Shown in pieces: positions 1,714 to 23,008 of a DNA stretch of 23,571 nt. The notes under the pieces were generated by a model. It was not told where the DNA came from, made no database searches, and saw nothing but the letters and a program-made list of their open reading frames with translations. Made by a program: the position numbers and the translations under genes. This DNA is from a virus, in IMG/VR virus record IMGVR_UViG_3300037042_003694, positions 1 through 23,571 of that record; one strand, 5' to 3'. Every line of letters begins with the position of its first letter. Position 1 is the stretch's first letter.

Positions 1714-2027
1714 CACGGCCCCTCGGGAGGTGGATCCGGAGGCACCACGACCGCGCGCGCGAACGGCACCATGTCCGGCGTCCGGTCCGCTGGCGAGGTG
1801 TTGACGATGGCCATGACCTCGGCGCACGGGCACTGCGTCCACACCTCGACCGAGACGCCGTCACCCGCAGCGTAGGCCGCGAATCCAAGGTCTGACAGCC
1901 ACGCGAGGAGGTCGCCGACGAGCTCGTTCGGGGTCGTGATCTGCAACGCAGGGTCCGGCCCGCCCTGGCCATCGAACATCGACAGGATCGCGAGCGTCGC
2001 GGCGAGCTTGATGTCGTCGATGCTCAT
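1713..2027 (-). CDS. Hypothetical phage protein (104 aa)
   Basis: The start at 2027 overlaps the stop of the fibre gene (ATGA). The N-terminus (DDIKLAATLAILSMFDGQGG) looks helical; the middle (NELVGDLLAWLSDLGFAAY, then GDGVSVEVWTQCPCAEVMAIV) looks like a compact mixed fold; the C-terminus is proline-rich (VVVPPDPPPEGP). I do not recognise a family. Its position between fibre and lysis genes would suit a fibre chaperone or an accessory protein, but the sequence does not show which. Confidence 0.75.
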   Translation of the reverse strand: MSIDDIKLAATLAILSMFDGQGGPDPALQITTPNELVGDLLAWLSDLGFAAYAAGDGVSVEVWTQCPCAEVMAIVNTSPADRTPDMVPFARAVVVPPDPPPEGP

Positions 2028-3679: not shown

Positions 3680-3996
3680 AGCCGCACCTTCATTCCGATT
3701 TCCACGGACACATCGCCGCCGATCGCGAAGACGCGCACAACGCTTGCCCCTGGCCCACCCTGCGCGTCGTGCCACTCGCTCACGGGGTCATCGGCCGTGA
3801 GGAAGTAGCCCGCCGTCTCGGTAGGCGTGCCGTCCTGCTCGTAGCGCAGATCACCAGCGCTCGCCTCGAGCCGCTTGACGCGCCACTCGACGGTGTTGGC
3901 CACGAGTGCGATCGGATCCGAGCATTCGCCAGATGCGACCGTGACGATGGTGGGAGTCCCCAGACGTACGCTCGGCTCTCGGAAGCTACGGGCCAC
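3676..3996 (-). CDS. Hypothetical small protein before the fibre gene (106 aa)
   Basis: The start is a GTG. Two are possible: 4002, whose first base lies inside the GGAGG at 4002-4006, and 3996, which leaves a five-base spacer; I prefer 3996. The stop overlaps the fibre GTG (GTGA). The protein is soluble and beta-rich, with segments TPTIVTVASGECSDPIALVAN, VEWRVKRLEASAGDLRYE and ASVVRVFAIGGDVSVEIGMKV. I do not recognise a family. Its ribosome binding site lies in the 3' arm of a hairpin (4005-4025), so its translation may be controlled by RNA structure. It may be a tail-tip or fibre-attachment protein. Confidence 0.75.
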   Translation of the reverse strand: MARSFREPSVRLGTPTIVTVASGECSDPIALVANTVEWRVKRLEASAGDLRYEQDGTPTETAGYFLTADDPVSEWHDAQGGPGASVVRVFAIGGDVSVEIGMKVRL

Positions 3997-4647: not shown

Positions 4648-6354
4648 CTACTCTCCCGGCACCCAGTCGATGGACAGCGCCAAGAGATGCAGCTCGGTCA
4701 CCGGCTCCATCGTCACCGCGAAGGCCGGCTCGTCGCGCGACACCTCGATCGTGGTCTCGATCAGGCCATAGGTGTCCGCACCGGCACCGCTCCCGTTGTT
4801 CGGGATCGTCAGCTCCGCCCCGCCACCGCCACCGCGCTCGGACACGTAGACGTGCGAGTTCGTCCCGTCGCTGCCGGTGTCGTAGGCGTAGGCCGAGATT
4901 CGTGCCGTGGCGCCGCCCTGGCCGACGAAGGAAGTCGGCGACAGGCCGATGGTGCGGGCAGGTTTCGCCGTGCTCGAGTCGAGCGTAAGCGCCGCCTTCG
5001 GGGTAGCGCCGTGGACGAACGGGATGGCCATCGAAAAGAGCCGTTGACGGCGGTCCGCCATCACGCGCGCCGGGTTCCGCCAGGCGCGGTTGTACCACTC
5101 GGGATGTATGCTGGCGCCCTCTTGGATGATTTGCCCGAGCCCCATGAACTCGAACCCTGACCCCGCGCCGGCCGAGAGGTCGATCAAGTCCGTCACGCGC
5201 GGCGTCACCATGATGCCCATGACCCGCACCACGTCGGCGCCTGAGCACGTGACCCGGAACCGGAGCATCGTCGTTGCCGCCGGAATCGTCAGCGTCAAAT
5301 CGGTCCATTCGGTGAGTCCGGAGATCGTGGCCTCGGCCGTCGTGTCAATGTCGGTCCAGTCCCCTGCGGTGTCGGGGTCGGGCTCGGCCACATCGTTCTG
5401 GGCGACCGCGAGCGTGGCCAGTGTGGCGGTTCCGTAGGTCACGATCCGGACCACGTACTCGAGGCCGTCGGCGCTTGGGACGATCGGCTGCAGGATCGAC
5501 TGGTCGTTGTGCCCGACGGCGAGGCCCCCGTCGTAGTACGGCGCGACGTTCACAAGCGGCGGCGCGTGGACGAGGAAGTGCCAGTTGACGTCATTCGCGA
5601 GCTTGCGCACGGGGTCGCTATAGGCGGTCTGGAGCCCCGAGAGTTCGTCCGCTCCGATCCCCAGGAAGCGGCCCGTGAACGGATAGTTGGGCTCGGCGAC
5701 GAAGGCGACCGCGGGCCAGTCGGTAGGCGCCACGGCGTAGGCCGGCGTCGCGCTGTCGCGTCCACCGAGCACAAGCGTGTCCGCGAGGAACGAGCGGCGA
5801 CGGTTGCCGCCCGACATGTCCGCGCAGATCCCCGCCACCGCGCCATAGCCCGTGCGGCTCGGAGACCCGCCGACCTCGAGCGCACCGTAGCGCAGTTCGA
5901 TTCGGTCCCACGTCTCGAAGAGCACCGTCTGCACCTTCCCGCGTTCGTAGATCGATCCGTTGTGCGCCGAGAGGAGCTTGATATACCACTCGATCACGCA
6001 CCGACGGAACGGCGCCGTGCCCTGCACCTCGGCCTTGACGTAGCCCACCGAGTCAGCGGTCGCGCAGTCGTCCCACCATGCGGCGATGAGCGGCAGATCC
6101 GTCGAGCCGAAGAACACCGCCGGATCTGCGCCCGGGGCGGCGTTCGTGAAGTCGACGAAGCCTTGTCCGCTCAGGTAAGCACTTGTGTAGGTCGTTCCGT
6201 CCAGGCGGAAATCGAAGCCCCACGAGAAGTTCGCGGCCGCGGCACTGTTAGCGCCGAGCACCGTCGTGGCCGAACTGAACGGATAGAATCGGGTGTCGGC
6301 GCTCCGCCGATGCACCAGCATCCGCGTCATGTCCGTTGCCTTCAGCGCTGGCAT
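4648..6354 (-). CDS. Tail protein with N-terminal nidogen-like adhesin domain (568 aa)
   Basis: The ATG at 6354 begins one base after the upstream stop. Residues about 20-200 follow a pattern I know from secreted adhesins with a nidogen-like beta-sandwich: GQGFVDFT, then LPLIAAWWDDC (88-97), FRRCVIEWYIKL (116-127), VQTVLFETWDRIELRYG (141-157) and a closing glycine-rich GYGAVAGI. Residues about 290-390 look like a second beta-sandwich of the carbohydrate-binding jelly-roll type (LTEWTDLTLTIPAATTMLRFRV). The C-terminal 150 residues carry a glycine run (RGGGGGAELTI) and a beta-rich end. By position it follows the baseplate hub gene, so receptor recognition is the likely role. The domain reading is pattern-based and needs a profile search. 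Confidence 0.8.
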   Translation of the reverse strand: MPALKATDMTRMLVHRRSADTRFYPFSSATTVLGANSAAAANFSWGFDFRLDGTTYTSAYLSGQGFVDFTNAAPGADPAVFFGSTDLPLIAAWWDDCATADSVGYVKAEVQGTAPFRRCVIEWYIKLLSAHNGSIYERGKVQTVLFETWDRIELRYGALEVGGSPSRTGYGAVAGICADMSGGNRRRSFLADTLVLGGRDSATPAYAVAPTDWPAVAFVAEPNYPFTGRFLGIGADELSGLQTAYSDPVRKLANDVNWHFLVHAPPLVNVAPYYDGGLAVGHNDQSILQPIVPSADGLEYVVRIVTYGTATLATLAVAQNDVAEPDPDTAGDWTDIDTTAEATISGLTEWTDLTLTIPAATTMLRFRVTCSGADVVRVMGIMVTPRVTDLIDLSAGAGSGFEFMGLGQIIQEGASIHPEWYNRAWRNPARVMADRRQRLFSMAIPFVHGATPKAALTLDSSTAKPARTIGLSPTSFVGQGGATARISAYAYDTGSDGTNSHVYVSERGGGGGAELTIPNNGSGAGADTYGLIETTIEVSRDEPAFAVTMEPVTELHLLALSIDWVPGE

Positions 6355-6355
6355 C

Positions 6356-8920
6356 TCAGCTCCATTGGACCTTGTCCGTGTTCTGGAGGTACCGCGCTTG
6401 CGCCTCGGTGCACTCGGCGTTGACGGGCCACGTGAGCCGCATCGACGTCGTGAAGGTCATCGTCACCGATGGCCACGCGCTGAGTGCGATGCGTGCGACC
6501 CCGCCGCCGGGGAGCGTCACGCCGGAGACGGTGACGAGGCCCGCGCCGTCGTCCTCGCCGGGCGTGTAGGCCAGCAACTTCCACGGGGTGCCGCGGTTGC
6601 CGTAGATCAGCGCGTAGTAACTCTCGTCCACGTCGAGCGAGGTGGGCGCGGTGGCCGTGCCGTTGACGGCGAGGACGGGGACCGACGGCGACATCGGCGG
6701 CGCGGTGCGCTTCCCGTCGATCGCCACCTCGACGGTCTGCGCGCCGGTCTCGAGACGGAGCTGGACGCCGAGCACGCGTGCGAGCCCATGATAGCCCGGC
6801 GCGGCCCGCGAGTAGTCCCACAGCGCAACGTCGTCCAGGTCGAGCATGAGCACGTCGCCCACCTGCACGTCCTGCCACGGCGGGAGGTCCAGCTCGACGA
6901 CCTGCCGCTCGCACGCTTGGAACCACGAGCTCGCCCACGCCTGCGCGGGTAGCAGGAGCGTGGAGCGATCCACGCCGTAGACGTCCAGCTTCCAAACGTC
7001 GTCGGTGCGGTCGGCGACGTCCTTGCTCTTGGCGATGATCACGCCCTCGCTGCCTTCCTGGTCGCCGATGTCCGCCGTCTTGCACGTGACCTGGATCGTC
7101 TGCGGCGCTGCGAACGAGGAACGCACGCGGATCGGGCGCGTCGATGGATCGACGAAAGCCAAGTCCGCGTCGCGAATGGTCGCGACTACATCGAAGGTGT
7201 CCGGCGGGCCGACGTTCACGGCCGCGATCTCCATCGCGCTTCCGTCAGCCGAGCGGCGAGCGGCGATACCACGCTGCGAGAGCTTGAGCAGGCCGCCCAT
7301 GAGCTTGGCAAGCGACGTCCCAGCGTCGACCGCGAGCACGGCGGAGATCATGCCGAAGGCACCATCGAAGACGTCCGCGAACGACTGCGCGTCGATGTCG
7401 GGCATCGCGTAGCCCTGGCCACGCGCAAGCGTGTCGTGCGCGCCGTTCACGCCGTCGCCGGTGCTCACGATTGCGCGGCGCATGACGTCCTCGACCGGGC
7501 CCTCGTCGCGCCACAGGAACGTGACGGACAGTTCGGCGGACTCGCCCGAGACATCATCCGCAGCGAGCATCACAAGGTCGCTGCCGATGGGCTGGGATCC
7601 CGGGTCCAGCTGAAGGTGCACCTTCGCGCCGTTCCCGGCGTCGACGGAGAGTGACGTGTACTCGAGGATCTGCTTCTTGTCTCCTCCCTCGATGCGGATG
7701 AATCCCGCAGTCGGCAAGTCAGCGGGGTCGCCTTCCTCGATGACAACCGCGAGGCTTCCGCCAACGACCTGCGTCCGCTGAATCAGCTGCGTGTCGTAGT
7801 TCTCGGTCGCTCCAAGCCAAATCTTGAGCGGCACCTCGACAGCGATGCCAGCCTGTATGCTGGACACAGAGATCGTGACGCGTGTCTCAGCGTCCGTCTG
7901 GGTCGAGTGAAACCACATCCTCCAGACGCGGCGCATCGCGTCACCGTCCGGGCTCGTCTCCTGTTTCCATCCGATGAAGTCGATCGGCGAGCTCGGGTTG
8001 TCGGCAAGGATCCGAGCGAGCAGTTTATCGGCAATGAGCTTGCGGGCTCGCGATGGCGCAACCAGCGTGGACCCATCGCTGAACGTGTTGATCGCCACCT
8101 CGGTCACGATGGCCGGGCTCGCCACGGGAGTCTGTCGGACCTTCATGCAGATCGTGTGGCTGAAGCCGACGTGCTGGAGTCCGTCTTGGTCGAGGGCCCA
8201 AGAAGCCGTGCCCTGCGCGGAGGCCGACAGCGGTGCGCGCAAGGTCTGCACCTGGTCGCTCGCGATGCACTCCCACTCGGTCCCGTTGCGCACCGGCCGC
8301 GCCGACATGTAGCCGGTCCAGACGCAGCACGCTTGCGAGAGGATGTCCCCGCCCGAGGTCACGACGTAGCGCGCGCACGGGTCGATGAGCGCCATGAACA
8401 GCTCGACGCGGCGGCGCTTCCAGTCGCCGGGCGAGTCAGTGACGACGGTGCCCGCGGGGTAGGTCTTCGCGGGGCCGTAGACGCTTCGGTCGAGCGCCGT
8501 GAAGGCGTCGTAGAGGTAGCCGGTCTTTTCGAGGCACGACGTTCCAAAGTAGATGGTCGACGCCGCCGTCGGGAAACCTGCGGTGGAGTCGACGGCCATC
8601 GTCGTCGCGTCGTGCGCGAACTCCGCCGTGATGGTCGTTTGAGCCGTCGGCCGTCCCATCAGCGCGCGCACCGCGGGCGTGTCCGTGAGCCGGAACTCCA
8701 GATCCTTCGCGCCCGCGAAGTGGTCCTTGTCCGAAAGCACGGAGCCGATGCGCGCGCTTCCGTCGATCACGAGGCTCGCGTCGAGCGTGTAACCCGTGGG
8801 CGCGTTCGCGTCGCGCACCGCCTCGACCAAGAGAGTCGTGATCCCCTCGATTCGTAGGATGTAATAGGGCGCGAACCCGTAGCGGATCGCGCCCGTCAGC
8901 GTGGCCCACGGCGCGCTCAT
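6356..8920 (-). CDS. Baseplate-hub / tail-tip protein, gpJ-position (854 aa)
   Basis: This is the largest tail-tip gene, placed after two small tip genes as lambda J or the hub proteins of other siphophages are. The N-terminal 90 residues (APYYILRIEGITTLLVEAV, SLVIDGSARIGSVLSD) resemble hub domain 1. Residues about 104-165 form a small beta module I recognise from phage tip proteins (TTMAVDSTAGFPTAASTIYF, then TALDRSVYGPAKTYPAGTVV). This is followed by RVELFMALIDP, CVWTGYMSARPV and GTEWECIASDQVQTLRAPL, typical of the gp27-like hub barrel. The C-terminal half (DVQVGDVLMLDLDDV, ARVLGVQLRLETGAQTVEVAI) also fits a hub. The start at 8920 overlaps the upstream stop (ATGA). Confidence 0.85.
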   Translation of the reverse strand: MSAPWATLTGAIRYGFAPYYILRIEGITTLLVEAVRDANAPTGYTLDASLVIDGSARIGSVLSDKDHFAGAKDLEFRLTDTPAVRALMGRPTAQTTITAEFAHDATTMAVDSTAGFPTAASTIYFGTSCLEKTGYLYDAFTALDRSVYGPAKTYPAGTVVTDSPGDWKRRRVELFMALIDPCARYVVTSGGDILSQACCVWTGYMSARPVRNGTEWECIASDQVQTLRAPLSASAQGTASWALDQDGLQHVGFSHTICMKVRQTPVASPAIVTEVAINTFSDGSTLVAPSRARKLIADKLLARILADNPSSPIDFIGWKQETSPDGDAMRRVWRMWFHSTQTDAETRVTISVSSIQAGIAVEVPLKIWLGATENYDTQLIQRTQVVGGSLAVVIEEGDPADLPTAGFIRIEGGDKKQILEYTSLSVDAGNGAKVHLQLDPGSQPIGSDLVMLAADDVSGESAELSVTFLWRDEGPVEDVMRRAIVSTGDGVNGAHDTLARGQGYAMPDIDAQSFADVFDGAFGMISAVLAVDAGTSLAKLMGGLLKLSQRGIAARRSADGSAMEIAAVNVGPPDTFDVVATIRDADLAFVDPSTRPIRVRSSFAAPQTIQVTCKTADIGDQEGSEGVIIAKSKDVADRTDDVWKLDVYGVDRSTLLLPAQAWASSWFQACERQVVELDLPPWQDVQVGDVLMLDLDDVALWDYSRAAPGYHGLARVLGVQLRLETGAQTVEVAIDGKRTAPPMSPSVPVLAVNGTATAPTSLDVDESYYALIYGNRGTPWKLLAYTPGEDDGAGLVTVSGVTLPGGGVARIALSAWPSVTMTFTTSMRLTWPVNAECTEAQARYLQNTDKVQWS

Positions 8921-9648: not shown

Positions 9649-10301
9649 GACGCACCACCGCCAAGGCACGGGAGCGACACGCGCACGAGCGTCACGTCGC
9701 CGTCAGGGTGTTCCCACTCGGGCTCGCCGATGGTCACCCAGCGCCAGACCGACTCCTGCTCGTCGTAGACGTATGCGGTCCGCGGCACGGCCGCATAGCG
9801 CAGCGCTTGCGAGAGGACGTGCGCCTGCGCCTCGGTGAGCCACAGTTCCACCTCGGGCCGCTGCGGTGCGAGCTGCGCGTGGCCGTACCGCCACGAGCCC
9901 TGGCGGCACCGGATGCCGCCGCTGTTGTCGATGCGGATCCAGCCGACGAGCCCCGGCATCTCCGAGAGCGTCCCCTCGGCCGGGATTTGGTCGTCCAACG
10001 GGTCGCCGTAGAACGTGAGGAACGGGGCCGGCCCGTCGACCGAGAGAAAGGTCCCGGTGTACGTGATGAGGAAGTTCAGCCGGTTGCCCGTGTCGGCGTC
10101 TGCGGCCACCGTGAAGGCCACCCCGGACACGTTCGCGGCCCAGACCCGCGCCGGGTCGTCCAGCCACGCCACGAGGGCCGTGGCGACGTCATAGGCGTTC
10201 GCCACGTCGCCGCTGACCGTGTAGGTCTCGGCGCCGTCGGCATGCGTCCACGTGATGGCAGCGCCGAGCCAGCCGCGCGTGGTGAGGATGACGCCGCCCA
10301 T
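9645..10301 (-). CDS. Tail-tip / distal tail-like protein (218 aa)
   Basis: The ATG at 10301 shares a base with the tape-measure stop (TGATG); the longer open frame upstream overlaps the tape-measure gene and is arginine-rich shadow. The protein is beta-rich: WLGAAITWTHADGAETYTV, VSGVAFTVAADADTGNRLNF, GPAPFLTFYGDPLDDQ, RPEVELWLTEAQAHVL and RTAYVYDEQESVWRWVTIGE. It directly follows the tape measure, the place of the lambda M or distal-tail protein, which joins the tube to the tip. The family name is inferred from position only. Confidence 0.8.
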   Translation of the reverse strand: MGGVILTTRGWLGAAITWTHADGAETYTVSGDVANAYDVATALVAWLDDPARVWAANVSGVAFTVAADADTGNRLNFLITYTGTFLSVDGPAPFLTFYGDPLDDQIPAEGTLSEMPGLVGWIRIDNSGGIRCRQGSWRYGHAQLAPQRPEVELWLTEAQAHVLSQALRYAAVPRTAYVYDEQESVWRWVTIGEPEWEHPDGDVTLVRVSLPCLGGGAS

Positions 10302-11911
10302 CAGGCGGCCCGTCGGCGGTCGAGGATCCGCCCGATGCTCTCCGCGTTCTCCTGCGGGCTGCCGCCAGCGAGTACGCCGATGTTGAGCACGATCGGGCCA
10401 TTCGACTGGCCACCGCCGCTGTTGTTGCGCACGAGCGACGTGCGCGGGGTGTTGCGCGCCGCTCCGGCGCCTCCGCCACTTGCGCCGCCGCCCGTGCCGA
10501 TCCCGGTCGCCGCGACGATGCCAAGCGCGATCGAACTGGCGAGGTAGCCGGAGGCCATGGGCTGCATGCCAGGCACGAACTCGGACGCGAGGAACAACCC
10601 GAAGTTGATGGCCGCAAGGACGCCCGCACGAGCGCGCTCGTCCTTGATCTGCTGAGCGCCGACCTTCGCGAGGTTTCCAACGGTCGTCGTGACCGCGGCG
10701 CCCATGTTCTGGCTCGTCTTCCCGTACTCGGCCCAGACGTCCGTGATCTGGCCGAGGGAAGCGGCGTACTTGTCCAGCGCCGGGATCGACTCCATGATCG
10801 CGGACGAGATGTCGCGGATGCCCTGGGCGCGCGCGTCGGCCTCTTCGGCTGACCACATCCGGTTGATGTCTTCCCACTGCGAGTCCGCCGTGGCGCGCTC
10901 GACGCCCTCTTTCTGCTTCTCCTCGATGCCGCGGTCTTCCTTCTGCCGCATCACCTGGATCGTGTGCTCGACGCCCGCGATGTCCTCGTCCTTCCAATCG
11001 CTCAGGATCTTCTCGAGGTCCTTGTCAGAAACGCCGCCGCCTTTCTTCGTGCCCCCGCCGCCGCCACCTCCGCGGGGCTTGAGAAGCTCCTTGTTGACGG
11101 CGTCGTTGATGCCGGGCCCGGCGCCAAGCGCGCCCACAACGCCAAGAGCCCCGCCGGCCGCCTTCAGCGGTGCCAGCAAGGCCCACGACTTCTGCACCGT
11201 GATCTCTAGCCGCTCGTTGAGCGTGCGCGCCGCTTCGGCCTGTAGAATGCGGTTCGTGAGCTGCTCGGCCGTGATGCCGCGGACGGAAAACTCGATCTCG
11301 CGAGCCATCGTGCGGATCTGGAGATCCTCGACCTTGATCTTGTGGATCTCGTCCTCGCGCTCGCGCTGGCCACCGAGCATGTCGTAGGTGGCCTGCACGA
11401 AGCCCGGCATGGCCTCATAGCGCGTTGCGATCTGGGACAACGCGGCCTCGGCCTGCGCGTGCTTTTCGTTCAGCTTGCCCCACGCCTCGACCTCTTCGGT
11501 GCCGAGCGATCTGATGGTCGCGCCAGCCTCGCCGAGCTTCGCGACGAGCGACGCGGTTGCCTTCTCGAGCCCGGCGATGTCGCGCTTGAACTCGTCGTGG
11601 AACTCCCGCACCCGGTCGACGGAAAATGCGTCGTTGAGCGACGCCACGAACCCGATGACCGCGGCGCCCATGCCAGCGACCGCGCCGGGGATCCCCATCA
11701 TCCCCATGCGCACGCCAGCGAGCCCGCCACCGAGCGAATTGATGCCCGACGTGGCGCCCTTCAGCGACTCGCCGATGCCCTTGAGTCCGGTGGCCTCTTC
11801 TTTGAGGCCCTTGAGCGCCTTCGCGTTCTTGTCGACGACGGCGGCCCCATCGCCCTGCCCCCGCACGTCGATGACGACATTGATCGTTCCGGACTGCGCC
11901 CCGATACCCAT
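10301..11911 (-). CDS. Tail tape measure protein, short type (536 aa)
   Basis: Features of a tape measure protein: a helical N-terminal part (AAVVDKNAKALKGLKEEATG), a glycine/methionine-rich hydrophobic segment at about 62-92 (GLAGVRMGMMGIPGAVAGMG, AAVIGFVASL), long charged helices with coiled-coil character (about 95-240 and 305-370), a flexible poly-glycine/lysine linker near 285 (RGGGGGGGTKKGGG) and a second hydrophobic stretch near 425-480. The C-terminus (GPIVLNIGVLAGGSPQENAE) is a pattern common at tape-measure ends. At 536 residues it is short, implying a short tail because tail length scales with this protein. TGATG overlaps flank the gene on both sides. Confidence 0.9.
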   Translation of the reverse strand: MGIGAQSGTINVVIDVRGQGDGAAVVDKNAKALKGLKEEATGLKGIGESLKGATSGINSLGGGLAGVRMGMMGIPGAVAGMGAAVIGFVASLNDAFSVDRVREFHDEFKRDIAGLEKATASLVAKLGEAGATIRSLGTEEVEAWGKLNEKHAQAEAALSQIATRYEAMPGFVQATYDMLGGQREREDEIHKIKVEDLQIRTMAREIEFSVRGITAEQLTNRILQAEAARTLNERLEITVQKSWALLAPLKAAGGALGVVGALGAGPGINDAVNKELLKPRGGGGGGGTKKGGGVSDKDLEKILSDWKDEDIAGVEHTIQVMRQKEDRGIEEKQKEGVERATADSQWEDINRMWSAEEADARAQGIRDISSAIMESIPALDKYAASLGQITDVWAEYGKTSQNMGAAVTTTVGNLAKVGAQQIKDERARAGVLAAINFGLFLASEFVPGMQPMASGYLASSIALGIVAATGIGTGGGASGGGAGAARNTPRTSLVRNNSGGGQSNGPIVLNIGVLAGGSPQENAESIGRILDRRRAA

Positions 11912-12324: not shown

Positions 12325-12790
12325 CGGCGGCCACCTCCGGGGTCTCGACCGCGTCCTCGGGCTTGAGATTCGAGCGCGCGAGCTTGCGGAGTCCGTCAAG
12401 CGGCACGCGATTCGTCAGATCGAAGATGAGGAGCGCGAGAAGGTCCGCCGCCTGGCTGCTCGTCAGGTACAGATCCTCGACCCAATCGGCGATTGCCTTG
12501 GCCGAGCGCACCTTCCCAACGGCGCAGACGGCGGTGTGCAGCGCGCGGAGTCGGCCCCGCGCCTCGCCACCGGCATCGCGGCACGCGGCCTTTTCGGCTG
12601 CGTTCATCCCACGCACGGTGACGCGCGCGGCGCCCGCGCCGACGGAGATCACCCCAGGATCGTCCACGCTGACCCATCCGCACCACGCGAGCTCGGGCGC
12701 GAGGCGCACGTCGGTGTCCTGCGAGTAGACGTATTCCGTCTCGGACTGCTTGACGGTCATTGCCCCGGCGGGCGTGCCTGGGAGGCCCAT
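12299..12790 (-). CDS. Tail assembly chaperone, gpG-like (163 aa)
   Basis: The start at 12790 shares a base with the tail-tube stop (TGATG); ATG at 12760 is an alternative. The N-terminal 60 residues are beta-type (ETEYVYSQDTDVRLAPELAW, VISVGAGAARVTVRGM) and the rest is helical (AEKAACRDAGGEARGRLRAL, AIADWVEDLYLTSSQAADLL), ending in an acidic tail (PEDAVETPEV...DSKSDE). Its place between the tail tube and tape measure, and overlap with a second short reading frame, are hallmarks of the gpG/gpGT chaperone that holds the tape measure during tail assembly. The sequence itself is too diverged for me to recognise; the call rests mainly on synteny. Confidence 0.75.
   Translation of the reverse strand: MGLPGTPAGAMTVKQSETEYVYSQDTDVRLAPELAWCGWVSVDDPGVISVGAGAARVTVRGMNAAEKAACRDAGGEARGRLRALHTAVCAVGKVRSAKAIADWVEDLYLTSSQAADLLALLIFDLTNRVPLDGLRKLARSNLKPEDAVETPEVAADGDSKSDE
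12334..12338 (-). promoter_or_regulatory. Ribosome binding site deciding the start of the gpT-position gene
   Basis: GGAGG lies nine bases before the ATG at 12324 and inside the end of the chaperone gene. It supports independent initiation of the 137-residue protein instead of, or as well as, frameshifting. Confidence 0.6.
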
Positions 12791-14070
12791 CAGCCCACCG
12801 CCGCGACGAAGACCTTGTTGCCGGCGCCCGTGCTCGCGCCGTCGCCGTCGTAGAGCCCGGCAGCCAAGCCGACCGCCGTTCCCCACGTCCCGTTGTTGTA
12901 GGCCGGCTTCGCGCTCACGACGCGTCCAGCCGGCATGCCCAGCGCGAAGAGACGCCCGGCCGTGTCGCCCTGGTAGACGTTGAGCGCGAGCGGCGTGCGG
13001 TTCTGGCGCGCCGTCTCCACGATGTCGACCGCCGACACCTGGTAGGCGCTCGTGCGCGGGATCCAGAGGTTCGCCATGATGTTCGGCGTCAAGACGCGCA
13101 CATCGCTGACACCCTCGGGCCCGCTCGGATTCAGGATCGGATCGTGCGGGATCTCGATGTCGAACCCGAGATCGCGGACGTCATCAGACCCGGACGGGTC
13201 CGCCGTCCCATCGTCCATGGCCGAGATGACGTTGCCGCCGAGCGTGACGCGCGCGCCGCCGCGACCGAGCATAGGCTCGAGCGCGAGGTAGCTGGTGTGG
13301 GCCCGATCGAGGCCGCCGTCGGCGCCGGCGAAGTTCGTGCCGCCGTAGCAGATCATTTCGTAATCGAGCCACCACCGATCGGCGTCGAGCTTCAGGTGGA
13401 CGGCCGAAGGGACGCCGCCAAGAAAGCGGTAGTCCTGGTCCGTGTCCTCACCGACGAGGCGGGCCGTGAAGTACCACGGCGTATCCTTCACCACGATCGC
13501 GGAGCACGTCGGATAGCGGAGCACGCCCGAGCCCGGCACCGCGCCGAGGTCCTCGCGGAACTGCACCACGTAGGGGGTCGACGGGTGCGTGACCGCCTCG
13601 ACCCATCCCATCCCCGTGACGACACCAGCAGCGCCGAAGGCGAGCAGAGAGCCCGGCGACGTCGCGCCCGGCGTCGTCGCGCAATCGACGGTGTTCCCGT
13701 CCACGGGCGAGACGTCGGCCGCCGCATAGGCGATTGCGTTCGTGTCGCCGTTGGCACCGCCGAGAGCTGCGAGAAGCGGCAGCATCCCGCCACCGAATGC
13801 GGGCGTGCTACTCGCGTGCGCGTAGGCCGCAACCTGGCCATGCGCGGGCACGCGGAACTTGATCGCCCACCACCGACGTCCGAGGTACGGGTGGACGCTA
13901 CCGCCGCGCGAGCGAATCGGACCGTTGGGCTTGGCTTCGACGACGATCTCGTCGACCGAGACGTTCGAGGCGTCGTGCCAGATCCACGACGACCCCTCGG
14001 TCGCAAGGTCTGCCTGGTCCGCCAGCGCGAACTCGTAGGCGTTCTCTCGGAGCACGCTTTGAATCGACAT
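12790..14070 (-). CDS. Major tail tube protein, enlarged (426 aa)
   Basis: The position of lambda V, between the tail-completion protein and the chaperone, identifies this as the tail tube subunit. The start ATG at 14070 follows a 54-base gap with a hairpin-embedded GAGGTGG ribosome binding site. The N-terminal part (AYEFALADQADLATEGSSWI, VDEIVVEAKPNGPI, RWWAIKFRVPAHGQV) and the middle (YRFLGGVPSAVHLKLDADRW) fit the beta-barrel tube fold with added loops. It is much longer than lambda gpV (246 residues), so surface or inserted domains are likely (about residues 100-170 and the C-terminal 70, which are glycine/threonine rich). Dedicated gap and ribosome binding site suggest high expression. 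Confidence 0.75.
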   Translation of the reverse strand: MSIQSVLRENAYEFALADQADLATEGSSWIWHDASNVSVDEIVVEAKPNGPIRSRGGSVHPYLGRRWWAIKFRVPAHGQVAAYAHASSTPAFGGGMLPLLAALGGANGDTNAIAYAAADVSPVDGNTVDCATTPGATSPGSLLAFGAAGVVTGMGWVEAVTHPSTPYVVQFREDLGAVPGSGVLRYPTCSAIVVKDTPWYFTARLVGEDTDQDYRFLGGVPSAVHLKLDADRWWLDYEMICYGGTNFAGADGGLDRAHTSYLALEPMLGRGGARVTLGGNVISAMDDGTADPSGSDDVRDLGFDIEIPHDPILNPSGPEGVSDVRVLTPNIMANLWIPRTSAYQVSAVDIVETARQNRTPLALNVYQGDTAGRLFALGMPAGRVVSAKPAYNNGTWGTAVGLAAGLYDGDGASTGAGNKVFVAAVG

Positions 14071-15625: not shown

Positions 15626-16552
15626 TTACGCCGAGGCGCGCTCGATGCTGATCGAGAGGTCGCGGAGCGTGGCGAGGTTGGACGCATGGCCCGCGTTACT
15701 CGTGGCCCGCACCGTCACGTCGAAGCCAGCAGTGGACGAGGCCGTGATGGCCTTGGCCTTCTGGATGCTCCCCGGCGTGGTCACCGTGCTGTCCTTGAGG
15801 ATCTGCGTCGACTTCACCTCGCCGGTGATCGAGCCGCCGACCGCGGTGCACTTGATCCGCGTGTGGCCCGCTGCATAGTCGTCGGCAGCCGCCGTGGCGA
15901 TCACGGCCGTGTCGACGACCGTGGACCCGACGAGGACCTCGACGGTCACCTGCGGGGTCGAGTCGGACCCGTCCACATAGACCGACCAGTCGATGTTGAG
16001 GAAGTCGTCGGCGACCATGAAGGCCGCTCCCACCGAGCACTTTTCGGTGAAGACGTGCGCCGCGGTGTCGGTCAGGTTGACCTGGTCGCCAACGCCGACG
16101 TTCGAGTCCGAAAAGACGAGGCCGTTCACGTTGTCGAGCGCGTCGACTCGAAGGTCGAGCGTCCCGCCATTCAGGGCGATCGCTTCGAGGTCCTCGATCC
16201 GGGTCAGCTGTGCCGCGGCCTCGACGACCTTCAGCGGGAAGATCGCGTACTTGACGAGAAGCGCACCGCTGGCGGCATACTCAGTCGCGACGGCGACTGC
16301 CGGGTTCGCCGTGTCGGTGTTGAATTCCTGGTCGGCGATGTCCCAATAGAGCAGCTCGCCGACGTCGACCACATAGCCGGTGGCCTTGGTCCCGACGAAC
16401 TCGCCGCCAATGCGGACCGCCACGAGATCGCCGACCGCGGCTGCCTTCTCCGGCACACACGCCATGCCGTTGATGATTTCCAGAACGCCGGCCTCGAGGA
16501 TGTTCGGCGTCACGATGTTGATGAGGTCGCCGGCGCCGCGATAGTTCTGCAT
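15626..16552 (-). CDS. Capsid decoration (DUF2190-like) protein with extra C-terminal domain (308 aa)
   Basis: Residues about 1-105 fit the DUF2190 pattern of small capsid-cementing proteins: MQNYRGAGDLINIVTPN, MACVPEKAAAVGDLVAVRIG, then VGELLYWDIADQEF and a closing LLVKYAIF. Residues about 106-308 form an added beta-rich domain, with VDALDNVNGLVFSDS, SVYVDGSDSTPQVTVEVLVG and GFDVTVRATSNAGHASNLAT. Such extensions on decoration proteins are often displayed on the capsid surface. The ATG at 16552 has a strong ribosome binding site (AGGAG, about eight bases upstream) after a 61-base gap, consistent with high expression. Lambda has gpD upstream of E; here the decoration gene follows the capsid gene. 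Confidence 0.8.
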   Translation of the reverse strand: MQNYRGAGDLINIVTPNILEAGVLEIINGMACVPEKAAAVGDLVAVRIGGEFVGTKATGYVVDVGELLYWDIADQEFNTDTANPAVAVATEYAASGALLVKYAIFPLKVVEAAAQLTRIEDLEAIALNGGTLDLRVDALDNVNGLVFSDSNVGVGDQVNLTDTAAHVFTEKCSVGAAFMVADDFLNIDWSVYVDGSDSTPQVTVEVLVGSTVVDTAVIATAAADDYAAGHTRIKCTAVGGSITGEVKSTQILKDSTVTTPGSIQKAKAITASSTAGFDVTVRATSNAGHASNLATLRDLSISIERASA

Positions 16553-16613: not shown

Positions 16614-19070
16614 TTAGCTCCGGTTGATCTGGACGAGGCCGCGATGGTCCACCGCGGCAACGTAGAACGGCAGGCGGACCTTGTAGTTCTTGCCGTCCGT
16701 GGTGAAGCCGTCCTCTTCCGTGAGGTCGGGCCCCTCGGCGCCATCGAGATAGCCGTACTGGATCGAGACGATCTCGTTCGGGTCGGCGACGAGGATCGAG
16801 AACACCGGGCTCTGATCGTCGAGGAACGGCTCTTGAATGAGGCCGTCGATGAGTCCTCGCATCGAGTTCGTCGGTGCCGTGCCGGACGAGGTCGGCACAT
16901 AGCCAGGCCCGAGGAACGCCTCGGCCGTGGCCTTGTCGTCGATCCCGAGGATCCAGAACTTGGGCTCGAGGCTGAGGTAGTCGCCGAGCGCGTCGGGTTC
17001 GCCGGCGAGACCAAGCTCGCCCTTCTGCTTGCCCATAGCTTTCCGTCCGCTTTGCAGCGTCGTGAAGCTCGGCGTCCCCGTCGATGCCGCGATGTTGGCG
17101 TGTCCGACGGAGAACAGATCCGTCGTCCCGTCGGCCATCTTGTTTGCCTCGATCATCGCCTTGAACTTGCGATTTTCGTAGCGCAGGCAGGCCGTGACGC
17201 GATCGTCGGCGAGCTGCTGGATGCGGCCCCAACGATCCGCAAGGATGAGCTCCCAGCTCACCGGGAAGATGCGTCCGCCCTTGGCGAGCCTGACGTCGTA
17301 GTCGCTCTCGGTGACCCCGCCCATCTCGTACTTGCCGTTTTCAGGCACGTCGAGGAGCGGTGGGAAATTGCCACCACCGATCGCCTTCGTCGACTCGAAG
17401 TCGGGCAGGTTGATCTTCTTCGCGGCCAGCTTCCAGGCGCTCACGCGCTCCGTGTAACGCTGCTTCGTGTAGGTGCGGAGGGCCGCGCCAACGAGGGTCG
17501 ATAGGTCCCCGGTGCCCGACAGCGTCCGCACCGCGACGTGATCGCGGCGAGCGCCCATCAGGACCTGCACACGCTCCAGGCGCGACATGCCGCGGAGCTG
17601 GCGGGAGTCGCCGCCTCGCGACTCAAAAAGCGTCTCGGCGAGATCCATCATCGAGAGCCGCGATGCGCGCTTGACCTCGGGGTCGTCGTGTTTCACGCCG
17701 ATCTCGGCGAGTTCGGCGCGAAGGGCCGGAGAATCCTTGCCGGCGAGGTGCACCGCAAAGCCGGCGTGCAGCACCGAATAGAGCTTCTCGGTCGCCTCGG
17801 CGCCAACGTCGACTTGATGGTGATTGCTCACGCTGGTGGTCCTTTTCGGATCGGCTGCGGCCGCGAGGATCGAGAGCTTCGCCTCGGTGAACGTCTTGGC
17901 CGTCGTGACGATCTTTTCGACCGCGGCCTGGTCGAGCCCGAGGCTCGTCGCGAGCTGGCGACCCATCGCGAGGTTTGCGGCGCGTTCGGCGGCGAGCTTG
18001 TTCGCGCGGACCTCGACGCGCCGATCGGTCGCGGCCGACAGCGCCTTGGCCGCCATCGCAGATGCGGCCGCGGGCACAGTGCCGCACGCCTCCGCGCAGA
18101 CCTTGCACGCTTCCGTGCACGCGGCCGTGCACGCATCGCAAGCGGCCATGCAGCTTTCGGGCGTCGCGTCGGCAGCGGTGCACGCGTCGGCACACGTCTG
18201 ACACGCGGCCTGACACGCGGCCATGCACGCGTCCGTGGCGGCCTGAGCGCCAGCGACGGCGAGCTTGTTTGCGGCGGCGATCTGCTCTGCGGTCATGGTC
18301 ATCGTGGGCTCCTCGTGTTGCGTTCCGGAGTCTGTTCCCGCGCGATGCGCGAGCGAGATGGGGGTGTCGGAGAATGCCGCCGAGAGCGCTGCGCGCACCT
18401 GCTCCACGCCTGCGGCTTGGACCGCCGGAACATTGCAGACGCTGCACTCGGTCAGTTCGGCCGAGGTGAAGACCCACTCGGCGCGGGCGCTTGCCCCGTT
18501 CGCTCCGGCGATCGTGTCGCCGGGCAGGTGGTAACACTTGGTCAGGACCGGCGCGGCGCACGCGCTACACTCGATCGGGCCCGTCGGTGCCCATCCGATG
18601 GAGACGCCACCGAGCAGGCCGCGCAGCGCGAGATCAACGGCCCAGGGGGCGGTCAGGACGGCGGTCATTCGGATCGCGTGCCCGCCGCCTGCGAGCTGCT
18701 CGGTCGTCGACCTGGTGATCGTTCCGGCTCGCGAGAGGCTGTCCTCTTGGGCGTGGTCACGAAGAAACGGCATGCCGACGCCGCTCGCGCCGAGAGCCGA
18801 CATCGCGGCCTCGGAGAATCGGACGTGACGACGGTTCGCGACGCCTGGCCGCTGCTCGTAAGCGAGCAGGTCGATCGAGAGCGAAACGAACTCGCCGGCC
18901 GCGCACTTGGCCAGCATCGCGTCACGCAACGCTGGCGTAATCGCTGCGCCGTCCGAGGCATAGAGCCGCGTTTCGGGTGCCGTGACGACTGCGCGGCAGA
19001 CGACCGGCATCGCCTTTCTGAGCGATGCCTCTCGCGATTGCAGGTGCATGGTGTGCTGGCTCACGAGCAC
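16614..19070 (-). CDS. Prohead protease-scaffold-major capsid fusion polyprotein (818 aa)
   Basis: One frame covers protease, scaffold and capsid, a known fused arrangement in some phages. Residues about 20-215 are the prohead protease: FVSLSIDLLAYEQ, RHVRFSEAAM, PFLRDHAQE with His106, and GLLGGVSIGW with Ser157 as the likely catalytic pair. CxxC pairs at 168/171 and 209/212 may bind zinc. Residues about 260-420 are the helical linker/scaffold; inside it, residues 282-329 hold 12 cysteines in CxxxC/CxxC spacing. Residues about 425-818 are the major capsid protein, Mu gpT-like: VGAALRTYTKQRYTERVSAW, PPLLDVPENGKYEMGGV, RIFPVSWELILADRWGRI, PVFSILVADPNEIVSIQYG, then a C-terminal strand. The start is uncertain: GTG at 19070, GTG at 19064 or ATG at 19049. 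Confidence 0.9.
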   Translation of the reverse strand: MLVSQHTMHLQSREASLRKAMPVVCRAVVTAPETRLYASDGAAITPALRDAMLAKCAAGEFVSLSIDLLAYEQRPGVANRRHVRFSEAAMSALGASGVGMPFLRDHAQEDSLSRAGTITRSTTEQLAGGGHAIRMTAVLTAPWAVDLALRGLLGGVSIGWAPTGPIECSACAAPVLTKCYHLPGDTIAGANGASARAEWVFTSAELTECSVCNVPAVQAAGVEQVRAALSAAFSDTPISLAHRAGTDSGTQHEEPTMTMTAEQIAAANKLAVAGAQAATDACMAACQAACQTCADACTAADATPESCMAACDACTAACTEACKVCAEACGTVPAAASAMAAKALSAATDRRVEVRANKLAAERAANLAMGRQLATSLGLDQAAVEKIVTTAKTFTEAKLSILAAAADPKRTTSVSNHHQVDVGAEATEKLYSVLHAGFAVHLAGKDSPALRAELAEIGVKHDDPEVKRASRLSMMDLAETLFESRGGDSRQLRGMSRLERVQVLMGARRDHVAVRTLSGTGDLSTLVGAALRTYTKQRYTERVSAWKLAAKKINLPDFESTKAIGGGNFPPLLDVPENGKYEMGGVTESDYDVRLAKGGRIFPVSWELILADRWGRIQQLADDRVTACLRYENRKFKAMIEANKMADGTTDLFSVGHANIAASTGTPSFTTLQSGRKAMGKQKGELGLAGEPDALGDYLSLEPKFWILGIDDKATAEAFLGPGYVPTSSGTAPTNSMRGLIDGLIQEPFLDDQSPVFSILVADPNEIVSIQYGYLDGAEGPDLTEEDGFTTDGKNYKVRLPFYVAAVDHRGLVQINRS
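18084..18227 (-). other. 12-cysteine cassette within the scaffold region (DUF326/copper-storage-like pattern)
   Basis: Residues 282-329 of the polyprotein contain cysteines at 282, 286, 290, 293, 297, 307, 311, 314, 318, 322, 325 and 329, all spaced by two or three residues apart from one loop. The alanine-rich helical context (CMAACQAACQTCADAC, then CMAACDACTAACTEAC) matches the pattern I know from Cys-rich four-helix copper-binding proteins. Metal binding is inference. Confidence 0.75.
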
Positions 19071-19106: not shown

Positions 19107-20747
19107 TCAAGGTGCATTGGGATCCGGCTCCAGCGCGGGCTCTGCGGCCGGATCAACGGGAACATTCGTGCCGCTGACCGCTGGCGGGAAGGCGCCGCGG
19201 AAAGCCATCTTGCTCGGGTTCGAGTCGAAGACGAGTTCGCCCGCCGCGTCGAGTTCGGCCTGGCGCCGTTCGTAGAACGTCGCCGGATCCTCGCCGCGCG
19301 ACGCCAGGACCGTGTCGTGGAGGATGTACCCCGCGCGTTCCTGGATGATGTCCGCGATCGCGTCCTTCTCAGCGTCGACCGACATGCGTTTCGGGGTCGA
19401 CCACTCCCGCGGCATGTTGGGCGTGCTCGCATTGCCGGCGAGATAGGCGCCCTCCTGGCACCAGTCCCAGAGCCGATCGCAGAGCGTCGGGATGAACCAG
19501 ATCCATTGCTGCACGTCCACGTGCGCGTCGCGTTTGAGATGGCCGGCGCGATAACTCGTGTAGTTGACGCCCGACAGATCGCCGGTCAGATCCTCGTATG
19601 GGATATTGAGGCCGGCCGCCACCTCGTGGTGACCCTGCGCCATGTACTCCGGATAGTAGGCCGTCGCCTGCGGCTGCACGTGCGTGACCGAGCCGCCGTT
19701 CTCGACGCACAGGACGGAGCCGGGGCGAATGTCGCCAACCGCGTTCCCGTTCTCGTCGAGTACGCTCGGGGTCAGCCCGTATGGGTTGTGATCGTCGTCC
19801 TCTTCGAGCGGCGATAGAGCCTCGGCGATTGCCGGGGCCGTGACGATTACCGCGCTTCGGGTCTCGATCTCTTTGCGAACGAGTTCGGCCGCGGCGTAGC
19901 TCGACAGAGCCTGCTTGCGGACCATCGCGGCGGACCCGTGCGGCACTCCGTCGAGTTGGCCGACGCGGAGCGGAGACACCAGATGGATCACGTCGCAGGC
20001 CGCGACGAACACGCTCGCACCCGCGCGAGACAGCAGCGACGTCTCGCCCGGATGCGACGGGAGAAACCAATAGCCCTCCACGCGCCCGAGCGCGGATACC
20101 TGGATCCCGCCGATGATCTGACCGCCGCTGTCCGTCGCCCCGTGGCGGGACGTGTCGAGCATGTCGCGCTCGAGCGCCTGGACCCGGAACGGCACGACGC
20201 GTCCCGGCTCCATGTCCCAGACGCGCCGGAAGAACACCGCCCCGTCTCGCTCCCACGCATACCAGGCGAGCCACATCACCGCGTAGATCGTGGCTCGGCC
20301 CTCGACGTCAGCGCGGCCGAGACCCGCGAACCATGACCAGGCGGCGTCGGCCTGGTGCTGCGCGAGGGTGCGCGTGCGCGCCTTCGGCGCCCCGAACTCG
20401 GTAGGCGCGCCCATCGCGCGCGGAACGATCCCCGTGCCGACGCCCTCGTCGGCCGAGATCGTCAGGTAGCGGCGCCAGTGCGGATCGTTGCGATCGAGGT
20501 CGCGAGAGCGGGCGACGAGGTTCGTCGAAGCCGCGGCGACGGTGCTGTTCGGTCCGCCGCTTGTCGTGGTCCAGTCAGGCCGGAGCCGCGAGACCTTCGC
20601 CGAGTCGTACCCGCCGAACGCGGCGAGCACATTGGCGATCCCCATGAGCGGAGCGGGCACTACCTTGGCGCCGATGAGTGCTCGAGCCGTGGCGCGCACG
20701 GTCGCCACAAAGCCCTTCGGCGCTGCCTTTCCGCGTCCGCGTCCCAT
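19107..20747 (-). CDS. Portal protein, lambda gpB-like (546 aa)
   Basis: The dodecameric portal forms the DNA channel at the capsid vertex. Family signatures: LVARSRDLDRNDPHWRRYLT (about 81-100), DEGVGTGIVPR, AVMWLAWYAWERDGAVFFRR, DVIHLVSPLRVGQLDGVPHG (similar to the lambda-family RPGQ.RGvP block) and NIPYEDLTGDLSGVNYTSYR, a strong lambda-portal motif, followed by IWFIPTLCDRLWDWC. Length matches lambda gpB (533). The C-terminal acidic/proline tail (AAEPALEPDPN) is unremarkable. The ATG at 20747 shares a base with the gpW-like stop (TGATG). In lambda an internal start within C gives the scaffold; here the scaffold lies in the next gene. Confidence 0.93.
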   Translation of the reverse strand: MGRGRGKAAPKGFVATVRATARALIGAKVVPAPLMGIANVLAAFGGYDSAKVSRLRPDWTTTSGGPNSTVAAASTNLVARSRDLDRNDPHWRRYLTISADEGVGTGIVPRAMGAPTEFGAPKARTRTLAQHQADAAWSWFAGLGRADVEGRATIYAVMWLAWYAWERDGAVFFRRVWDMEPGRVVPFRVQALERDMLDTSRHGATDSGGQIIGGIQVSALGRVEGYWFLPSHPGETSLLSRAGASVFVAACDVIHLVSPLRVGQLDGVPHGSAAMVRKQALSSYAAAELVRKEIETRSAVIVTAPAIAEALSPLEEDDDHNPYGLTPSVLDENGNAVGDIRPGSVLCVENGGSVTHVQPQATAYYPEYMAQGHHEVAAGLNIPYEDLTGDLSGVNYTSYRAGHLKRDAHVDVQQWIWFIPTLCDRLWDWCQEGAYLAGNASTPNMPREWSTPKRMSVDAEKDAIADIIQERAGYILHDTVLASRGEDPATFYERRQAELDAAGELVFDSNPSKMAFRGAFPPAVSGTNVPVDPAAEPALEPDPNAP

Positions 20748-20992: not shown

Positions 20993-23008
20993 TCAGCGGG
21001 GCGGGACGTACCTCGGGGCGATCGGGTGCCGTTGGCGCCGTAGCGGTTGCGCCGGCGATCTCGGGACAGGCCCCTTATGTGGGGCGACCTGGATCCGAGT
21101 AGGCATCACCGACCCGGTGTCCAATTCAACCGATGCTGTCGGATTCGGATTTATTGGCGCCGTCGGCGCGGTCGGTTTTTTCGCCGACGATGCCGGAGAC
21201 GGTCGCATCGGCCGGTCGAGCTTCACGGCGCCAGTCGCGAGCAGGCCGCAAAGCGTCGCGTAGCTGTAGACCGAGATATCCAGCGCCTCATTGCGCAAGC
21301 CGGGCGACCGCAGCACCCAGCGGCTTTTGCGGTCGCCCTTGGGCGCCCCACGTCCGGCCCGGCTATACTCGACCACGCACACCTCGCTCGTGAGCTCGTC
21401 GAAGTATCCCGCGTGCAGCGTGTCGGAGAAGTGCCAGAACCCGGCCCCGCCGCGCTTCCCGCTCTGGGCGTTCTCGGCGGAACGACGAAGCCGCGCGTGA
21501 AGCACGCTCTTTGCGTCGTGCACGCCGAGCATGATTGGCGAGTAACCGCCCTTGTTCCGAAACCTCGACTCGCGCGGCCAAATGCGTTGACCTGGCCCCT
21601 TCGATCCGCCCTTCACACCCCACACGCCTTTCGACTGGTATCGACGACAGAAGCTCCATGCGGCTTGCGTGTGCTGCCCCCCAGTGTCCACGCTCATGGC
21701 CTTGATGCCGATGACGCCGCCCTCGACTGGGTATCGCGTCCGGTATGCAGCGAAGAGCTCGGCCCACACCTCGGGCGCGGACGGGTCGCCCATCAGGTCG
21801 CGGCGCTCGAGCGTCCATCGCTCTTCGTGCGGGCCCCATGCGTCCGCCTGGAAGACGAGCCTGTCGCCCTGGGCGTCAGCGCCTGCCGTGATGCACGCAA
21901 CCCGCGAGGGCAGTTCGGCGATGGGCTCGAGCAATGCCCGCAGCGATTCGTCGTCCCACTTTTCGGCGTTCTTGGCGTCCCATGTCTCGCCCAGGACCGT
22001 GTTCGCGAAGACCTGCTCGAGCGTCGGATCGCCGCGCGAGTCGATCCACTCGCGAGCGAGCTGCGACCACGGGACCATCGACGAGTAGAGCGCCGGCCCG
22101 AGGTGAAATCCGATGGTCGCGGCGCCTGGATTCGTCGCCGCCCAATGCGCCCCGTTCGCCTCGTCGAGCATCCACGGCTTGCGATGGTGCGGGATGCATG
22201 TGCCGCACTCGGCGCACACGTATTCGGCCGCGGCCGGGTCTCCGTCGGGCCATCGAAGCTGCGCCCATTCGAGCGGCTGCATGTGCCTGCACTCGGGACA
22301 CGGAACGAGATACCGGCGCTGGTCGCTCGCCTCGTACGCAGCCTCGATCCGGCTCGCGCCTCGCACCGTCGGCGTCGAGCAGCGAACGATTTTCTTGCTC
22401 CACGGGTAAGTCTCCGTCCGCTTCTCCGCGAGCTTCTCCGGCGCCCCCTCACCGGCCAGTGACTCGGGGTATGCGTCGAGCTCGTCCATCGCGAGGACGC
22501 GCGCCAGACGCCGCCGGAAGCTCTTGGCGGTCGAGGCGCTCACGGCGTAGATGACGCCGCCCAGATAGCGCTTGTGCAGGATGGTGTTGCCCTTCGCTTT
22601 CTGCCGGTCGGTCGTCACGAGGCCCGCAAGCGATGGCGTCGACTCGAGCATCGGGTCGAGAGCGTCCTTGCTCCACTCCTCGGCGTCGGATTCCGACGGC
22701 TGGACGACCATGATCGGGCACGGCGCGAGCGCCATGTATGTCCCGATCATGTTGTTTATGGCCTCGGTTCCGCCAATGCGCGCGCACTTCTTCAGCACGA
22801 CCGACTGCGCCGGGTGCGATGGCGACAGCACGTCCATCACCTCGCGCAGATAAGGCACTCGGTCCGTACGCCACGGCCCCGGCTCCGAGCTCGCCGACGA
22901 GTCGAGCACGCGGTTTGCGTCCGCCCACTCGCTCACCGTCTGCGAGGACGGCGGGCGAAGCGCGGTGAGGCGGGAGGCGCGGATGTCGCTGGTGTCGGAG
23001 AGCCTCAC
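20993..23008 (-). CDS. A: Terminase large subunit, lambda gpA-like (671 aa)
   Basis: The ATPase-nuclease that cuts and packages the genome. The N-terminal ATPase shows a variant Walker A (VLKKCARIGGTE, residues 71-82) and Walker B (VLAMDELDAY, 171-180). A zinc-ribbon-like insert has CPEC (237-240) and CAECGTC (265-271). The nuclease domain shows TAGADAQGDRL (374-384) and AMSVDTGG (437-444), the expected first two acidic sites, and ALDISVYSYA near residue 588. Length compares with lambda gpA (641). The last 70 residues are a proline- and basic-rich tail without conserved structure. The GTG at 23008 overlaps the small-subunit stop (GTGA), and a long G-run near 23023-23029 can act as ribosome binding site. 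Confidence 0.95.
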   Translation of the reverse strand: MRLSDTSDIRASRLTALRPPSSQTVSEWADANRVLDSSASSEPGPWRTDRVPYLREVMDVLSPSHPAQSVVLKKCARIGGTEAINNMIGTYMALAPCPIMVVQPSESDAEEWSKDALDPMLESTPSLAGLVTTDRQKAKGNTILHKRYLGGVIYAVSASTAKSFRRRLARVLAMDELDAYPESLAGEGAPEKLAEKRTETYPWSKKIVRCSTPTVRGASRIEAAYEASDQRRYLVPCPECRHMQPLEWAQLRWPDGDPAAAEYVCAECGTCIPHHRKPWMLDEANGAHWAATNPGAATIGFHLGPALYSSMVPWSQLAREWIDSRGDPTLEQVFANTVLGETWDAKNAEKWDDESLRALLEPIAELPSRVACITAGADAQGDRLVFQADAWGPHEERWTLERRDLMGDPSAPEVWAELFAAYRTRYPVEGGVIGIKAMSVDTGGQHTQAAWSFCRRYQSKGVWGVKGGSKGPGQRIWPRESRFRNKGGYSPIMLGVHDAKSVLHARLRRSAENAQSGKRGGAGFWHFSDTLHAGYFDELTSEVCVVEYSRAGRGAPKGDRKSRWVLRSPGLRNEALDISVYSYATLCGLLATGAVKLDRPMRPSPASSAKKPTAPTAPINPNPTASVELDTGSVMPTRIQVAPHKGPVPRSPAQPLRRQRHPIAPRYVPPR

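Follow-up and report, generated by a model that had tools for sequence, protein, structure and literature searches.

A twelve-cysteine cassette, predicted to form a helical hairpin, in the scaffold of a fused phage protease-scaffold-capsid protein

Overview

A cassette of 12 closely spaced cysteines lies in the scaffold of an 818 aa phage protein that combines a prohead protease, a scaffold and a major capsid domain, and of the 154 homologous fused genes whose scaffold could be measured, no other has a Cys-rich one. The cassette is predicted to fold as an antiparallel helical hairpin that may bind metal, and it follows closely on an internal translation start signal that is conserved at the protease/scaffold junction of the fused genes. 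The source record (23,571 bases, 68% GC) was analysed at its full length and is referred to below as the window.

The fused protease-scaffold-capsid gene

The fused gene and its conserved parts are as follows.

16614-19070, minus strand: protease-scaffold-major capsid fusion gene, 818 aa (PF25209, phrog_4523, NF045541)
18366-19013, minus strand: HK97/S78-type protease part, about residues 20-235 (invariant His106 and Ser157, weak S78/proheadase matches)
18753-18755, minus strand: catalytic His106 (invariant alignment column)
18600-18602, minus strand: catalytic Ser157 (invariant alignment column)
17865-18017, minus strand: scaffold segment common to homologs, about residues 352-402, including ...GLDQAAVEKIV... 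(alignment)
16629-17522, minus strand: major capsid domain with HK97 fold, residues 517-814 (PF25209, Foldseek, profile matches)

Pfam searches predicted that residues 517-814 belong to PF25209 (Phage_capsid_4; E 3.8e-29), and the 818 aa fusion also matches phrog_4523, annotated as 'major head and protease protein' (E 7e-67). The score against the fusion model NF045541 (E 2e-71, 241.5 bits) is under the model cut-off of 525, and the protein is therefore considered a divergent member of the protease/major capsid fusions. The protease, the scaffold and the HK97-fold capsid all lie in one frame, which is the arrangement that defines the fusion family, and the location of the cassette in the scaffold region of such a fusion, first proposed from the sequence alone, is borne out.

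The catalytic residues of the protease part align with those of the Peptidase S78 family, and His106 and Ser157 are invariant in an alignment of eight sequences (the 818 aa protein and seven relatives). Matches to S78 and proheadase families at the C-terminal end of this part are weak, and the protease part reaches 12.5 bits against PF04586 (Peptidase S78), for which the cut-off is 21. The predicted structure of the scaffold-capsid portion matches HK97-fold capsids, including HK97, encapsulins and others (E about 1e-7, Foldseek), and the capsid domain has sequence profile matches to the Mu gpT-like capsids 8rkc and 9jod.

The domain order is that of known fusions in NF045541, NF045540 and PHROG 4523, for example Stenotrophomonas phage S1 gp8 and Rhodobacter phage RcKemmy gp9. 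These share with the 818 aa protein the HK97 fold, the protease His and Ser, the scaffold segment, and a Shine-Dalgarno (SD) sequence with an ATG at the junction. However, they have 0-4 Cys in the scaffold, whereas here a 12-Cys hairpin is predicted after the internal start and ahead of the scaffold segment that is conserved.

The cysteine cassette

18084-18227, minus strand: 12-cysteine cassette, residues 282-329 (Cys count, shuffles)

The Cys residues are at positions 282, 286, 290, 293 and 297, and then at 307, 311, 314, 318, 322, 325 and 329. The gaps are thus 4-4-3-4 / 10 / 4-3-4-4-3-4, and 10 of the 11 are 3 or 4 residues. The sequence-only reading gave the count of 12 and the coordinates exactly, and its description of short spacing with one interruption also holds, a single 10-residue step being the only gap of another size. 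Dinucleotide-preserving shuffles of the 144 nt of the cassette gave a mean of 4.5 Cys and reached 12 in 1 of 5000 cases, and when 12 Cys were placed at random, a series with 10 of its 11 gaps equal to 3 or 4 did not arise once in 200,000 trials. Other frames in the window never exceed 8 Cys per 48 residues. The cassette is known from one contig, where it is in frame and without stops between conserved domains, and its frame is the coding frame, in which the flanking protease and capsid parts each have homologs.

Hendecad units of 11 residues (33 nt) make up the cassette and are visible as 33-nt direct repeats with 73% identity, and it also contains 12-nt tandem repeats and three DUF326-like CxxxCxxCxxxC units. 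All Cys are kept between the 33-nt units while their codons vary synonymously between TGT and TGC, which suggests selection to keep Cys, and the residue differs at 16 of the 24 non-Cys positions compared, a comparison that is suggestive only since the units were picked by their Cys.

Distribution among homologous fused genes

Fused homologs were gathered from phage records, from scans of viral and genome contigs that were guided by the terminase or the capsid, and from genome searches. A Cys-rich stretch had been called unexpected in a scaffold, and the survey agrees: the 153 other scaffolds are Cys-poor, with 0-4 Cys each (46 lack Cys altogether), and no stretch of 48 residues in them contains more than 3. 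By a common measure the scaffold is 318 residues long here, against a median of 228. The site of the cassette corresponds in homologs to a variable spacer, with 23-118 residues up to a conserved Gly, compared with 122 here. As the cassette stands alone among the 154 genes and sits at a variable spacer, it is regarded as a lineage-specific feature and not one of the family.

An exact-peptide search of viral and genome contigs found no close relatives of the whole fused protein, and a search guided by TerL recovered one relative, at 34%. The DNA of viral contigs was scanned with two patterns, one of the helix with 7 Cys and one of a hairpin portion with 9 Cys, and among the matches listed there were only low-complexity or antisense sequences. 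There was no match in phages and plasmids by tblastn with the cassette, which the low-complexity filter probably masks. One match to the cassette in Myxococcota was rejected, being in an unrelated protein with a stop. The absence of the cassette from other sequences is established for the homologous fused genes only.

Predicted structure of the cassette

18177-18290, minus strand: predicted helix 1, residues 261-298, with Cys282-297 in its C-terminal half (AlphaFold2)
18087-18161, minus strand: predicted helix 2, residues 304-328, with Cys307-325 and with Cys329 at its end (AlphaFold2)
17943-18071, minus strand: predicted helix 3, residues 334-376, Cys-free (AlphaFold2)

When the segment was modelled alone (pLDDT 79.5), AlphaFold2 predicted a helix at 261-298, a short loop, a second helix at 304-328 and then the Cys-free third helix, and this arrangement appeared again in the model of the scaffold-capsid product (53 sequences, pLDDT 84.8). 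Helices 1 and 2 are thus predicted to form an antiparallel helical hairpin in both runs, though over the cassette the model draws on a single sequence because the homologs do not have it. All three helices precede the capsid domain, which is the N-terminal, helical arrangement of an HK97-type delta domain. Foldseek found no match to the hairpin segment in the PDB or among viral models.

On each helix the Cys line up in a single stripe, with a vector strength of 0.88-0.91 for a pitch of 3.6-3.67 residues per turn, and five pairs are mirrored about the loop with i+j=604 (297/307, 293/311, 290/314, 286/318 and 282/322). In an antiparallel hairpin this register would place the thiols at equal levels, where they should face each other. 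A mirrored register arises in 0.2% of random Cys placements and in 13% of cases when the gaps of 3 and 4 are reordered, and so adds modest evidence beyond the helical spacing. The segment is predicted to be helical, as the sequence-only reading implied, with its Cys on one face, but the model gives a two-helix Cys hairpin in place of a four-helix bundle.

Comparison with copper storage proteins

The sequence-only reading had likened the cassette to Cys-rich copper-binding proteins of the DUF326/Csp type. The spacing of 3 and 4 stands, but no match to PF03860, NCBIfam or the PDB accompanies it, and neither does a four-helix bundle. Profile searches with hmmscan found no PF03860 match in the 818 aa protein at E<=1, and none in the record, while the family was detected in Bacillus subtilis and in 20 of 299 genomes of another phylum. 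NCBIfam and PDB sequence searches with the cassette gave no DUF326/Csp match, Csp was absent from the PDB fold matches of the cassette model, and the monomer model contained no four-helix bundle. A scan of viral contigs by two conserved patterns confirmed no Csp3-type protein.

For comparison, a set of cellular Csp/DUF326 proteins was assembled from genomes belonging to two phyla. Cys-lined helices with spacing of 3 and 4 are a Csp trait that the cassette has, and the same gaps dominate in the collected Csps, but the order is a hendecad 4-4-3 in the cassette versus a heptad-like 4-3-4-3 in the cellular proteins. A whole-Csp model scored the cassette at 41.2 bits (uncorrected), compared with 38.4 +/- 5.0 for shuffles keeping only the Cys positions, 86 of 500 of which reached the cassette score, and this model does not separate the two. 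A model of the Csp repeat unit gave an uncorrected 60.3, above all 500 such shuffles; with the HMMER composition correction, 14 of 500 shuffles reached the score of the cassette.

In Csp3 proteins each Cys accounts for about 1 bound Cu(I), and BsCsp3 has 19 Cys (PMC9484137). The Csp/DUF326 proteins (PF03860; BsCsp3, MtCsp1) share with the cassette Ala-rich helices and Cys at gaps of 3 and 4. However, Csps are tetrameric four-helix bundles with many core Cys, whereas the cassette has two Cys helices, a hendecad repeat and no profile match. It therefore resembles a Cys-lined helical metal site in outline, yet falls outside the DUF326/Csp family by profile, sequence and fold searches. Its origin may lie in convergence or in a very diverged capture.

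An internal start at the protease/scaffold junction

18309-18314, minus strand: Shine-Dalgarno-like GAGGAG (sequence; duplex energy -8.1 kcal/mol)
18300-18302, minus strand: internal in-frame ATG, Met257, the predicted scaffold-capsid start (equivalents in homologs)

The sequence GAGGAG-CCCACG-ATG at 18300-18314 (minus strand), encoding ...HEEPT-Met257, lies at the junction of the protease and scaffold parts. An in-frame SD and ATG is found at this junction in 124 of 151 fused genes, compared with 20 of 151 control windows, which were of the same size and taken from the capsid part; the SD threshold was -5 kcal/mol or better. Counted by ATG, a strong SD is present in 70% of cases at the junction and 9% in the control windows. 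These counts are not independent as the genes are related, yet they come from a diverse set, with about 13-29% identity to the 818 aa protein.

The natural reading of this signal is that the fused genes make two products, the full-length protease-scaffold-capsid protein and a more abundant scaffold-capsid protein, and initiation at the internal start would yield more of the scaffold-capsid part than of the form with the protease. A conserved internal start would explain how many capsid subunits and few proteases arise from fused genes. Met257 is 25 residues before the cassette, which would place the hairpin close to the N-terminal end of the more abundant protein.

In lambda, Nu3 is nested within C, and the fused genes resemble this pair in having a nested in-frame product that would start at the protease/scaffold boundary. 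The lambda capsid protein E is the product of a separate gene, whereas the nested product here includes the capsid protein. C, Nu3 and B form an initiator complex in lambda (PMC3224144).

Possible role of the cassette

The reading that we tentatively prefer is that the cassette is a metal-binding, thiol-lined scaffold hairpin, specific to this lineage, which would leave with the scaffold at maturation. It would form a helical hairpin in the N-terminal, delta-domain-like scaffold of the capsid precursor and, given an excess of the scaffold-capsid product from the internal start, every capsid subunit would carry it into the prohead. The two Ala-rich helices run antiparallel in the model, and five Cys pairs at equal levels and two more Cys would line their facing surfaces. 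The likeliest role of these thiols under the reducing conditions of the cytosol would be to bind a soft metal such as Cu(I) or Zn(II), either inside one hairpin or between neighbouring ones; naming copper as the specific metal would be a guess. Against this reading, the Pfam scan of window genes recognised none with a function in metal handling, and the cassette has no family or structure match.

In HK97 the N-terminal domain of the capsid protein serves as the scaffold, and its part that corresponds to the hairpin region builds trimeric coiled-coil towers on the portal (PMC10275583). The HK97 gp5 scaffold (delta/mcpN) is, like the one described here, N-terminal, helical, fused to the capsid protein and located inside the prohead (PMC10275583). 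Bound metal may stiffen or oligomerise the scaffold helices at the place where HK97 builds its towers against the portal. The fused protease, which keeps its catalytic His and Ser, would then cut the scaffold off, and the module, with any metal, would leave before DNA fills the head. To our knowledge, the HK97 gp5 scaffold is a coiled coil without a Cys cassette, unlike the scaffold here, for which cleavage is inferred. A built-in metal-binding scaffold, in which thousands of thiols in each prohead gather Cu(I) or Zn(II), assembly or timed disassembly depends on metal, and the metal is freed on cutting, is possible but less likely than not.

The main rival to a metal module is that the Cys are small hydrophobic core residues of an Ala-rich coiled coil that was multiplied by 11-residue (33-nt) duplication, with no metal or redox role. 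The 33-nt and 12-nt repeats are in keeping with such an expansion, as are the Ala/Cys-rich low complexity of the cassette, its freely varying non-Cys residues, and a scaffold that is fluid in length and sequence among homologs. However, coils usually have Leu, Ile, Val or Ala at these positions, none of the 153 homologous scaffolds exceeds 4 Cys, a protein with twelve free thiols in each copy would be at a disadvantage if they had no use, and the TGT/TGC variation between units suggests selection for Cys, so that we consider this explanation somewhat unlikely. It is improbable that the cassette is a thiol/disulfide device, in which disulfides between mirrored Cys, across the helices or between subunits, would lock the scaffold or set the timing of assembly, for instance when reducing conditions are lost at lysis. 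The predicted hairpin, with five mirrored pairs across Ala-rich antiparallel helices, may have a geometry that permits close helix packing, but scaffolds do their work before DNA is packaged, while still in a reducing cytosol, and CxxxC/CxxC stripes on one helix look more like metal sites than structural disulfides.

Capture of a true copper-storage module from a bacterial Csp/DUF326 gene, storing or carrying copper in the prohead or virion, is quite improbable. Such a module would account for the Csp-like spacing and the three CxxxCxxC(A)xxC units, and Csp3 binds Cu(I) (PMC9484137). Against this, PF03860 finds no match, the hendecad is 4-4-3 and not 4-3-4-3, there are two Cys helices and not four, and relatives of Csp3 were not found in viral contigs by the two conserved patterns. 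Carriage of metal in the virion would also be impossible for the cassette, as the scaffold is normally removed. An assembly or sequencing artefact could be suspected of a cassette present on one contig only, but is scarcely credible for 144 nt that are in frame and stop-free, with Cys codons that differ between repeat units and with conserved protease, scaffold and capsid segments on either side.

Phage scaffolds are usually regarded as plain helical, disposable proteins. If the metal-binding hairpin is real, its presence in every capsid precursor would tie capsid assembly to metal or redox state, a link through the scaffold for which the open papers covered by the search gave no precedent. 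The hairpin-bearing prohead would then be a designed-looking metal cage. Encapsulins also use HK97-fold shells, and no paper pairing an encapsulin with DUF326 was found in the literature searched. As an illustration, if this phage had a T=7 head, its roughly 415 copies would together carry about 5000 cassette thiols.

Genome surroundings and a further Cys motif

19107-20747, minus strand: portal protein, lambda family (PF05136, E 3e-76)
20993-23008, minus strand: terminase large subunit, gpA (PF05876/PF20454)
15626-16552, minus strand: head decoration/cement protein (PF09956, E 7e-8)
18435-18569, minus strand: CxxC...CxH...CxxC motif in the protease part, residues 168-212 (Cys168, 171, 179, 209 and 212)

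The neighbours of the fused gene, TerS, TerL, a gpW-like adaptor, the portal, the cement protein and a possible head-tail attachment protein, make up the usual lambda-like head module. Between 203 and 15102, on both strands, most genes have no Pfam match or significant PHROG match where scanned, and this includes the long ORFs at 4648-6354, 6356-8920, 10301-11911 and 12790-14070. As most genes outside the head module are without a family match, the phage belongs to a poorly sampled lineage. Myxococcota, which gave the best portal match, were considered as host and rejected, 284 genomes giving at best about 26-31% capsid identity. Phage_cement_2 proteins are encoded at 2024-3775 and 15626-16552 (both minus strand), each with a long C-terminal extension, and one of them, of 583 aa, is far from the head genes.

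The protease part carries a Cys motif of its own. The full CxxC...CxH...CxxC pattern was found in none of the 153 other fused genes, and its CxxC and CxH are also present in the prohead protease of Bacillus phage KLEB27-3. Given this sharing, the motif is most readily taken for a zinc-like element of an ordinary kind that some prohead proteases have.
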